In this document: positions 7,582 to 9,429 of the stretch, one piece after another
Layout: every line of letters begins with the position of its first letter
Numbering within the stretch: the stretch's first letter is position 1
Assembly: GCF_005869845.1 (NCBI RefSeq)
Contig: NZ_VAWF01000002.1
Location: 62,001-126,000 of the forward strand
Direction of reading: 5' to 3'
Length of the DNA: 64,000 bases
Source: Fodinibius saliphilus
GTDB lineage: Bacteria; Bacteroidota; Rhodothermia; Balneolales; Balneolaceae
Position numbers and translations under genes: made by a program
The notes under the pieces: generated by a model
Databases searched by the model: none
Told to the model about the DNA's origin: nothing
Seen by the model: only the letters and a program-made list of their open reading frames with translations

Positions 7582-8031
7582 TTAAGAGTTGAGAATTCCT
7601 TGGAAAAAACTTTTGTCTTCTTCCTCGTCTTCACCTTCCGTTGCAATATTGCCATCATCATCAAAATAATCGCTGATTGCTTTATGCATTTTATCTGCAG
7701 TAAAAGGCTTTGTGATATATTCGTTTGCCCCTCCTTCGTTTAGGGCCTTATCAACTTTACCCATAGATTTTTCGGCAGTTACCATAATAATAGGGATACT
7801 TTCATTCCCCTCGGCACGTACTGCCTGAGAAAACTCCACCCCTGTCATGTTGGGCATATTCCAATCAACAAACATGATTTGGATCTCTTCATTGTACTTA
7901 CCTAAAGCATCCTCGCCGTCCTTAGCCTCTACATATTCAAATTCAGCTATCATTAGTTGATTTAGAGCCCGCTTAACGGCACTTCTCATTATTTTTGAAT
8001 CATCAACAACCAGCGCTTTTATTTTAGCCAT
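7582..8031 (-). CDS. cheY: CheY-type response regulator with acidic C-terminal tail
   Basis: First gene of the leftward chemotaxis cluster. The receiver (residues 1-122) has VVDDSKIMRSA, phospho-acceptor Asp in MFVDWNMPNMTG, Thr at the switch position in IIMVTAE, and Lys in ITKPFTADK. Unlike the two other CheYs in the cluster it keeps Thr at the switch. It ends with an extra acidic stretch (ATEGEDEEEDK) and a short hydrophobic tip (SFFQGILNS), about 25 residues more than a usual CheY. The tail could be a docking peptide; that is inference. It is the best candidate for the main motor-binding CheY of the operon because it is first and closest to canonical. Confidence 0.92.
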   Translation of the reverse strand: MAKIKALVVDDSKIMRSAVKRALNQLMIAEFEYVEAKDGEDALGKYNEEIQIMFVDWNMPNMTGVEFSQAVRAEGNESIPIIMVTAEKSMGKVDKALNEGGANEYITKPFTADKMHKAISDYFDDDGNIATEGEDEEEDKSFFQGILNS

Positions 8032-8187: not shown

Positions 8188-8214
8188 TTATCGTCACGAA
8201 TAACTATTTCTTAA
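8188..8214 (-). promoter_or_regulatory. FliA/sigma-28-like promoter for the che operon
   Basis: On the minus strand: TTAAGAAA, an 11-base spacer, GACGATAA. The -10 matches FliA consensus GCCGATAA at 7 of 8; the -35 is weak. The identical -35 octamer and spacer are found at 636-662. It lies 157 bases ahead of the first cheY ATG (8031) in the 489-base gap 8032-8520. Apart from this and the plus-strand element at 8445-8471 I see nothing else in the gap. Confidence 0.42.
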
Positions 8215-8444: not shown

Positions 8445-8471
8445 TAAAGTTTACCTTGTTAAAACCGATAA
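8445..8471 (+). promoter_or_regulatory. Near-consensus FliA/sigma-28 promoter for the 151-residue unknown protein
   Basis: The sequence is TAAAGTTT, 11 bases (ACCTTGTTAAA), ACCGATAA. This matches the enterobacterial FliA consensus TAAAGTTT-N11-GCCGATAA at 15 of 16 positions with exact spacing. It ends 49 bases ahead of ATG 8521. It is the best of four similar elements in this region. Confidence 0.62.
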
Positions 8472-8520
8472 ATATTATAGCAGATAATTTTCATGGCATC
8501 ATGCCATAGCTCATAACAAT

Positions 8521-8976
8521 ATGTTACCGCGTTCATCGCAAACAAATATCGAAACCGGCGTTACTCCTGCTGAAAGTATACGTCATATCCAGGAGTATGG
8601 GCCAGAAGCTTCTTCGGAAAACACTAAGTTTCCCGATATTGATAAGGATGGAGCTGGTAACAAAGAAGAGGATCAAACAAAAAGGACTGACTACCAATCA
8701 ATTGAGGGGGGGGACAACAATAGTTCCGCCTTTACTGCCTTACTTCCCAAAAGTGAATTTGATGAAATACTGGGCGAACTATTTGTAGCAGGCCACAAAC
8801 AACTTTTTGGAACTCAACATGAAATCCGAAACAGTAGGGAAGAAACCAAGCATTCTACAACTGCATTAACAAAGGCCAATACTGATAAAATACAATCTCT
8901 GCGTAAACACCACTATCAACTCCAAGTGGTTTTTCATACCACACCAAAAGGTGAACAATATGATATGGTTCTTTAG
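8521..8976 (+). CDS. Unknown 151-residue protein under a flagellar-type promoter
   Basis: I do not recognise this protein. It is hydrophilic, with no signal peptide or membrane segment. The N-terminal 75 residues are rich in Asp, Glu, Asn, Thr and Ser and probably disordered. Residues about 76-100 (FTALLPKSEFDEILGELF) look like an amphipathic helix, and the C-terminal 30 residues (HHYQLQVVFHTTPKGEQYDMVL includes two likely strands) may be folded. It sits divergent from the chemotaxis operon, directly behind a near-consensus sigma-28 promoter, and ends 30 bases before the convergent DHp-like gene. Context suggests a motility or chemotaxis accessory role, but no function can be read from the sequence itself. 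Confidence 0.65.
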   Translation: MLPRSSQTNIETGVTPAESIRHIQEYGPEASSENTKFPDIDKDGAGNKEEDQTKRTDYQSIEGGDNNSSAFTALLPKSEFDEILGELFVAGHKQLFGTQHEIRNSREETKHSTTALTKANTDKIQSLRKHHYQLQVVFHTTPKGEQYDMVL

Positions 8977-9006: not shown

Positions 9007-9429
9007 TTAGCTTGCACGACGGCTTTCTTTTACTTCTTCCAAGAGGTGTTCATCGAGATCACTTTGCGCAGGATCCTCTTCAAATGCTTCATACAGATCT
9101 TCAATAATTTCACTTAACTCACCTACCCCTTCTTCGATCTTTGATCGATATTTTTCAAGTTTCTCAACCTCACCTCCCTTTTCCAGAAAAAGCTTCATAA
9201 GCTCTAAATACCCAGAAATTGCACTTATTGGCGACATTGCTTTATGCATATTCTTTTGAACTAGTCGTTTTTGCAATTTATAAACTGCTTCAAGCTTTTT
9301 CTTCCCCCCCTTATTTTCCTCGGGTGAAAGAACCGGATACATATTACTACCCTTATCTCCTAAGCCCTTTTTATATATGTCAATCTTCTCCTCTATCGCT
9401 ATAACTGAATCGCTGTTTGTACTTCCCAT
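9007..9429 (-). CDS. Stand-alone histidine-kinase DHp-like protein
   Basis: A 140-residue cytoplasmic protein. Residues about 50-115 resemble the dimerisation/phospho-acceptor (HisKA) helices of sensor kinases: His62 lies in NMHKAMSPISAISGYLELM, where kinases typically show H-E/D-L-R-x-P-L-x-x-I-x-G-x, followed by a second helix (EGVGELSEIIEDLYEAFEE). No ATPase domain follows and the usual Glu/Asp after His is Lys. It could be a phosphotransfer protein, an inhibitor that pairs with a kinase, or an adaptor in the chemotaxis or hybrid-kinase pathway next door. AGAAGG lies 8 bases ahead of ATG 9429. The upstream 335 bases (9430-9764) are AT-rich and show no other feature I can name. Confidence 0.65.
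   Translation of the reverse strand: MGSTNSDSVIAIEEKIDIYKKGLGDKGSNMYPVLSPEENKGGKKKLEAVYKLQKRLVQKNMHKAMSPISAISGYLELMKLFLEKGGEVEKLEKYRSKIEEGVGELSEIIEDLYEAFEEDPAQSDLDEHLLEEVKESRRAS

Follow-up and report, generated by a model that had tools for sequence, protein, structure and literature searches.

Most of what is known about how flagellar genes are controlled comes from a small number of model bacteria. FlgM is a small, late-class protein with a disordered N-terminus and a helical C-terminus, and fliS and flgN-flgK-flgL are classical late genes. The phosphotransferases Spo0B and ChpT consist of a DHp domain alone, or of a DHp domain and a degenerate ATPase domain. Flagellum-associated two-component kinases, namely FlgS, FlrB and FleS, are described in the accessible part of PMC7064773, and the consensus for FliA (sigma28) promoters is given as TAAAGTTT-n11-GCCGATAA in that of PMC2859248. 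In the genus Fodinibius, cells are described as non-motile and the flagellar route as incomplete, according to the available portion of PMC9909488. In the literature open to us, we found nothing on FliA in Balneolaceae, on flagellin in Balneolales, or on motility together with flagellar genes in Balneolaceae.

We analysed a 64,000-nucleotide stretch of Fodinibius saliphilus DNA (G000:C2:62001-126000), which as a whole is called the window. It contains a 151-codon ORF that is the founding member of a protein family. The encoded protein, which this salt-loving bacterium shares with many flagellated relatives, probably serves as a new regulatory component of their swimming machinery. The relevant features of the window are as follows:

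7582-8031, minus strand: cheY, which opens the divergent che operon (receiver domain by Pfam)
8188-8214, minus strand: a weaker sigma28-like site before the che operon, TTAAGAAA-N11-GACGATAA, 11/16 to consensus
8445-8471, plus strand: a sigma28 (FliA) promoter-like site, TAAAGTTT-N11-ACCGATAA, 15/16 to consensus
8521-8976, plus strand: the 151-codon ORF, the family's founding member (ORF call, profiles, AlphaFold2, dN/dS about 0.16)
9007-9429, minus strand: the convergent partner, a 140-codon histidine-kinase DHp (HisKA) gene without an ATPase domain (motif HKAMSPISAISGYL)

On the same contig, a flagellar cluster extends from fliS to flgB, and the che operon starts next to the ORF (names other than fliA are mostly by eye). 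The flagellar gene set at G000:C2:15500-62000 looks complete by eye. Fragments of flagellin occur at two contig ends (G000:C2:2-130 and G000:C3:9-182), and probably reflect an assembly break in the flagellin genes. An earlier note on this DNA had described the ORF as divergent from the che operon, which agrees with the opposite strands of the ORF and cheY. The operon has the order CheY-CheX-CheA-CheR-CheD-CheX/C-CheB-REC-REC, in which names after CheY were assigned by eye from translations.

The earlier note could not assign the 151-residue protein to any family, and the same is true of our searches, in which no Pfam model scored above its cut-off and NCBIfam gave no match. The best Pfam match of the window protein, CFAP54_N (E 0.076), was taken as chance. 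For the family more broadly, Pfam (19 members) and NCBIfam (27 members) gave nothing convincing, sequence-profile searches of the PDB reached E-values of 0.27 and 0.67 at best, and the best E-value in PHROGs was 0.024 (two members scanned). A plasmid search left the window protein unmatched. The reading frame, whose lack of conservation would have counted against the view taken in the earlier note, is under purifying selection, with a dN of 0.20 versus a dS of 1.23 when the ORF is paired with its ortholog in F. halophilus (G004; 146 codons). In the same comparison, the neighboring DHp gene has a dN of 0.14 and a dS of 1.26, and cheY has a dN of 0.02 and a dS of 0.86. The ORF evolves fast, but as a protein.

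Members of the family are about 150 residues long. Acidic residues outnumber basic ones in 20 of 27 members, and a strong hydrophobic stretch was found in none of the 27 checked; the location of the window protein is probably cytoplasmic. AlphaFold2 models the C-terminal part as helices, to which the G027 member adds a beta hairpin, with modest confidence (mean pLDDT 57 for the whole window protein and 70 for the C-terminal domain of the G027 member). A Foldseek search of the PDB with the latter model gave a best E-value of 4.1. The N-terminal half exhibits a conserved pattern, yet the modelling gives it no secondary structure. Within it, residues 39-50 (DIDKDGAGNKEE, 8635-8670) look by eye like an EF-hand loop, a pattern that is not kept in aligned relatives.

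A search of 38 relatives with the single window sequence found the protein in eight congeners (E < 1e-9). Stepwise profiles, with matches at E > 0.001 discarded before counting, extended the family to 28 of 128 Balneolales genomes (E up to 1e-3). The weakest first detections are in G059 (5e-4), G110 (4e-4), G026 (5e-5) and G001 (3e-8). In G059, G110 and G001, a kinase adjoins the gene in a flagellar or regulator neighborhood; in G026, the pair is near the che operon. The half of the family found in Fodinibius and G012 aligns to the rest at 99% probability. Outside Balneolales, nothing passed 1e-3 in a search of the class (244 genomes), and all 11 matches in a sample of the phylum (395 genomes) are inside this order.

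One further ORF was left out of the 28. Located in G020 (L074:11405-11812, minus strand; 135 codons), it is divergent from cheY, convergent with a kinase and has ACCGATAA upstream. It weakly matches the C-terminal motif of the family, with an E-value of 0.0045 in a one-sequence search, and is possibly a highly diverged member.

The family follows the distribution of flagellar genes, where flagellated status is judged by gene content alone. We used Flagellin_N (PF00669) as a marker; because this model also matches FlgL, a positive genome has flagellin or FlgL. The idea that the gene occurs only in flagellated species held for 27 of the 28 member genomes; the exception is G126, an assembly of about 220 contigs in which no Flagellin_N gene was found. 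Nor was the gene seen in relatives that would be non-motile by this measure within the genus, in that all ten genomes with Flagellin_N have the family, and G007 and G009 lack both. Among Balneolales genomes, the family occurs in 27/52 with Flagellin_N versus 1/76 without (p 3e-12, ignoring kinship), and in 26/54 with FliA versus 2/74 without (p 4e-10, likewise ignoring kinship). Since the remaining 25 of the 52 Flagellin_N-positive genomes have no recognised copy, the family is not a core motility gene. In seven genomes of the genus g22 (G038-G042, G044 and G045), a sigma factor resembling FliA is retained (E 7e-68 to 3e-74), although a search for Flagellin_N with an E-value limit of 1e-5 gave nothing there.

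Upstream of the ORF, positions 8445-8471 read TAAAGTTT-ACCTTGTTAAA-ACCGATAA. As previously claimed, this site agrees with TAAAGTTT-n11-GCCGATAA at 15 of 16 positions, and 49 bases separate its end from the ATG at 8521. We scanned 126 kb of the contig (the window and 62 kb upstream) for the consensus with a spacer of 11. No site scored higher, and one at the start of motA ties with it. Three further sites, at 14/16, are located before fliS, before flgN-flgK-flgL and inside a flagellar gene. Twenty first-order Markov sequences of equal length contained a mean of 0.25 sites at 14/16, and none at 15/16. When the window was searched with the exact promoter string, allowing up to 3 mismatches, there were 2 matches versus 1.2 expected, a number equalled in 31 of 100 shuffles; the sole exact match is the site itself. 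Between the site and the start codon is an inverted repeat, ATGGCA-TCA-TGCCAT (8493-8507). The repeat is common to the window and G004, is absent from the other two leaders that were folded, and is barely more stable than shuffled sequences (z -0.2 and -1.0).

The core of the sigma28 -10 element, CGATAA, is present at most 200 bp upstream in all 28 members. Of these, 27 were scanned together, and the last, G059, has the site TAAGCTTT-N11-TTCGATAA. The core is upstream of 27/27 members versus 62/200 control ORFs, namely others in the same loci with intergenic starts (Fisher p 6e-13, with members that are not independent of one another). The nine che-linked Fodinibius members also have a clear -35 half (TAAAGTTT, TAAAGCTT, TAAAGAAA or TAAGGAAA).

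We considered whether the promoter match is due to chance, or whether another sigma factor drives the gene. Such an explanation would account for the -35 half being weak outside the nine che-linked Fodinibius (e.g., TTAAAAAA or TTTAAAAA; G110, with TTAAGTTT, and G059 are exceptions). It would also suit G012 and G026, whose only core is 148 and 129 bases upstream, respectively, and G126, which has the gene although neither Flagellin_N nor FliA was found. However, the core is present in every member, and in 25 of 27 the octamer containing it begins at a distance of 18 to 81 bases from the start codon. Moreover, 26 of the 28 members are in genomes with FliA; the two misses are G122, which is 67% complete, and G126. 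The window's own genome encodes FliA (G000:C2:33856-34629; TIGR02479 215 bits, cut-off 189.6). A chance match or another sigma factor is thus a very improbable explanation. From the promoter motif and the distribution across genomes, we take the ORF at 8521-8976 to be, very likely, a late-class gene whose transcription is predicted to depend on FliA.

On the other side of the intergenic region, 14 of the 15 loci that we scanned have CGATAA ahead of cheY, where the che operon starts, a count made without a control. Late-class control may therefore apply to both divergent transcripts. The nine Fodinibius che sites share the form TTAAGxxx-N11-(G/A)(A/C)CGATAA.

The earlier note proposed to check whether the gene is always near che genes. 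It is not: the che operon is adjacent or close by in only 14 of the 28 members. In twelve (nine Fodinibius, G012, G083 and G091) it is divergent from cheY, and in G026 and G029 it is near the che genes with an MCP gene between. In the stretches fetched for the other 14, some of which come from short contigs, there are no che genes. The gene is instead near flagellin genes with a kinase gene between (G027, G122, G024, G110 and G059), by flgB genes, by a gene for an NtrC-type regulator (G001), or in a setting with no reference-gene match.

A more constant neighbor is a histidine kinase gene convergent with the ORF, which occurs in 23 of the 28 members and in the che, flagellin, flgB-side and sigma54-regulator settings alike. 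No neighboring kinase was recognised by BLAST in G011, G030, G123, G124 and G023. Conversely, the kinase occurs in G028, where no copy of the ORF protein was recognised. In eight Fodinibius genomes, including that of the window, the partner is a DHp domain alone (130-142 codons). Across the DHp part, the window DHp protein shares 44% identity with the G068 partner (E 2e-18). It scores 22.6 bits with PF00512 versus a cut-off of 26.9, which 5 of 12 partners scanned exceed. HATPase_c is absent from both DHp-only partners scanned (window and G004) and is above its cut-off in 8 of 10 longer ones, with G012 and G068 just below. The phospho-acceptor histidine is present in all 22 aligned partners, including the eight DHp-only proteins. 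The residue following it is K or N in these eight, N in G012 and G091, and D in the other twelve. In 21 of 22 partners, hydropathy indicates no clear transmembrane segment.

The partners also tend to be one another's closest relatives. When the 14 longer partners were compared by BLAST with kinases in other groups (n=112), the best relatives were partners in 71 cases, the same-position kinases of G020 or G028 in 15, and other kinases in 26. Of these 26, 20 fall in groups with a truncated or reduced partner (Fodinibius or G012). The other six come from the partners of G001 and G110, whose best relatives are other kinases in three further groups each. For the eight DHp-only partners (n=64), the corresponding numbers are 45, 16 and 3. 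In a phylogenetic tree, 15 partners and the G020 and G028 kinases split from 15 other kinases of the loci with support of 84/76, and none of 500 label shuffles was as clustered. This tree is unrooted, its separating branch is not starred, and it leaves out short ORFs, all eight DHp-only partners and the kinases from five congeners. A quicker tree placed the G110 kinase among the others. These data give moderate support to a grouping of the partner kinases. A second kinase gene (332 codons), near flgB, could encode the main flagellar kinase.

Linkage to the kinase is the main lead to function, and we favor a reading in which the ORF product is a regulatory partner of the convergent histidine kinase or DHp protein. 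We hold this reading tentatively, at somewhat less than even confidence. The coupling is deduced from gene order; adjacency is not interaction, and che and flagellar clusters often contain kinases. Also against this reading are the five members with no recognised neighboring kinase, the reverse case of G028, the 25 Flagellin_N-positive genomes that lack the family, the position of the G110 kinase in the quicker tree, the weakness of the structure models and the second kinase gene near flgB. Another explanation is that the protein is an accessory of chemotaxis or the motor, acting on CheY, CheA or the switch and unrelated to the neighboring kinase, and that late expression just matches that of the che genes. 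The 12 members divergent from cheY and the two others near the che operon fit this idea, as does CGATAA upstream of the che operon (again, counted without a control). On the other hand, 10 of the 14 members without che genes in the stretch fetched retain the kinase neighbor, and no che family is among the Pfam matches of 19 members. We consider a chemotaxis or motor accessory a minor possibility. It is unlikely that the protein is instead a flagellar export substrate, a filament-associated protein or the chaperone of one. In that case, the disordered N-terminus would be an export signal preceding the helical C-terminus, which could explain why the N-terminal pattern is conserved where the model has no secondary structure, and why flagellin genes are near in five members, albeit beyond the kinase gene. 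However, no flagellar chaperone, cap or flagellin family was found by Pfam (19 members) or NCBIfam (27 members), and the cluster has other candidates for these roles, namely a FliS identified by eye, and a FliT and a FlgN that Pfam matches below the cut-off.

We regard it as quite unlikely that the ORF encodes a second, divergent anti-sigma28 factor resembling FlgM, or some other FliA-binding regulator. Like FlgM, the protein is small and late-class, with a probably disordered N-terminus and a helical C-terminus, and its C-terminal KIQxLR recalls FlgM helix sequences by eye. Against this, PF04316 does not appear among the matches of 19 members even with E-values up to 1 allowed, 28 of the 54 FliA-bearing genomes have no member of the family, and 18 of 38 genomes, including the window's own, have a separate FlgM-like gene, whose family aligns to that of the ORF with a probability of 0.1% when profiles are compared. 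The absence of a PF04316 match, the separate gene and the low profile probability led us to reject the identity of the ORF with FlgM itself. The FlgM-like gene (G000:C2:17738-18091, L066; 117 codons) is located between a fliT-like gene and one for a sigma54 regulator. Pfam does not recognise it, but it is probably the FlgM of this lineage. Its G001 version is FlgM-like by eye, and the Pfam FlgM model matches one of ten members of its family, weakly (E 0.024). We also rejected mimicry of sigma-70 region 4. Only one of 27 members (G026) matches sigma models (best E 5.5e-4), and hhalign comparisons of the family with FliA and RpoD profiles gave at most 0.4%, little above column-shuffled controls (0.1-0.2%; positive control 100%), so we call the G026 match chance.

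If the ORF product is a regulatory partner of the kinase, the pair might work as follows. With the hook finished and FliA released, the ORF protein would be made. Its helical C-terminal domain would bind the DHp domain of the kinase, and this binding would adjust the flow of phosphate to flagellar or chemotaxis response regulators. Flagellar completion would thereby feed back into signalling. In the eight Fodinibius with a DHp-only kinase, the step affected would be one of phosphotransfer or phosphatase activity, because the kinase has lost its ATPase domain and keeps the acceptor histidine. Such a remnant would fit a role for DHp as the contact surface or as a phosphotransfer step.

A more specific version is a lineage-specific checkpoint, in which the FliA-dependent protein would attach to a dedicated kinase at its DHp domain and so report flagellar completion to the signalling network. 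In Fodinibius, the kinase would have been reduced to a DHp domain that was kept for its continued use by the late protein and by a donor or acceptor of phosphate. We view this version as possible, though doubtful. To our knowledge, no model flagellum has a histidine protein that is controlled by a flagellar late-gene product.

If the favored reading is true, a family confined to one order is tied to sigma28 and to one lineage of kinases. Late flagellar genes could then feed back on two-component signalling, and not just on sigma28 through FlgM. The ORF and the kinase are a small gene pair that is open to testing, and the earlier suggestion that the protein is something new in flagellar assembly or chemotaxis is plausible. 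The finding also bears on the broken flagellar pathway published for Fodinibius, as presented in the part of PMC9909488 cited above, because selection still keeps a late gene and its promoter.

These features allow a comparison with the known systems. The ORF protein resembles FlgM in being small, late-class and flagellar, with a probably disordered N-terminus, but its family has no sequence or profile match to FlgM (PF04316), for which another gene is the candidate. The partner resembles FlgS, FlrB and FleS in that it is a HisKA-type kinase of flagellated bacteria, mostly without a clear transmembrane segment. In G001, the partner gene directly follows that of an NtrC-type sigma54 regulator. 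By contrast, the partner is elsewhere by che or flagellin genes, and lacks the ATPase domain in eight Fodinibius. We know of no FlgS, FlrB or FleS system that is paired with a small late-class protein. Spo0B and ChpT differ from the partners in that the Pfam models HPTransfase and SPOB_a match below their cut-offs, in one partner each. Nevertheless, the partners of G012 and G068 score just below the cut-off of the ATPase model, and the eight Fodinibius partners resemble Spo0B and ChpT, as judged from their sequences, in that they keep the acceptor histidine within a DHp domain but lack an ATPase domain.
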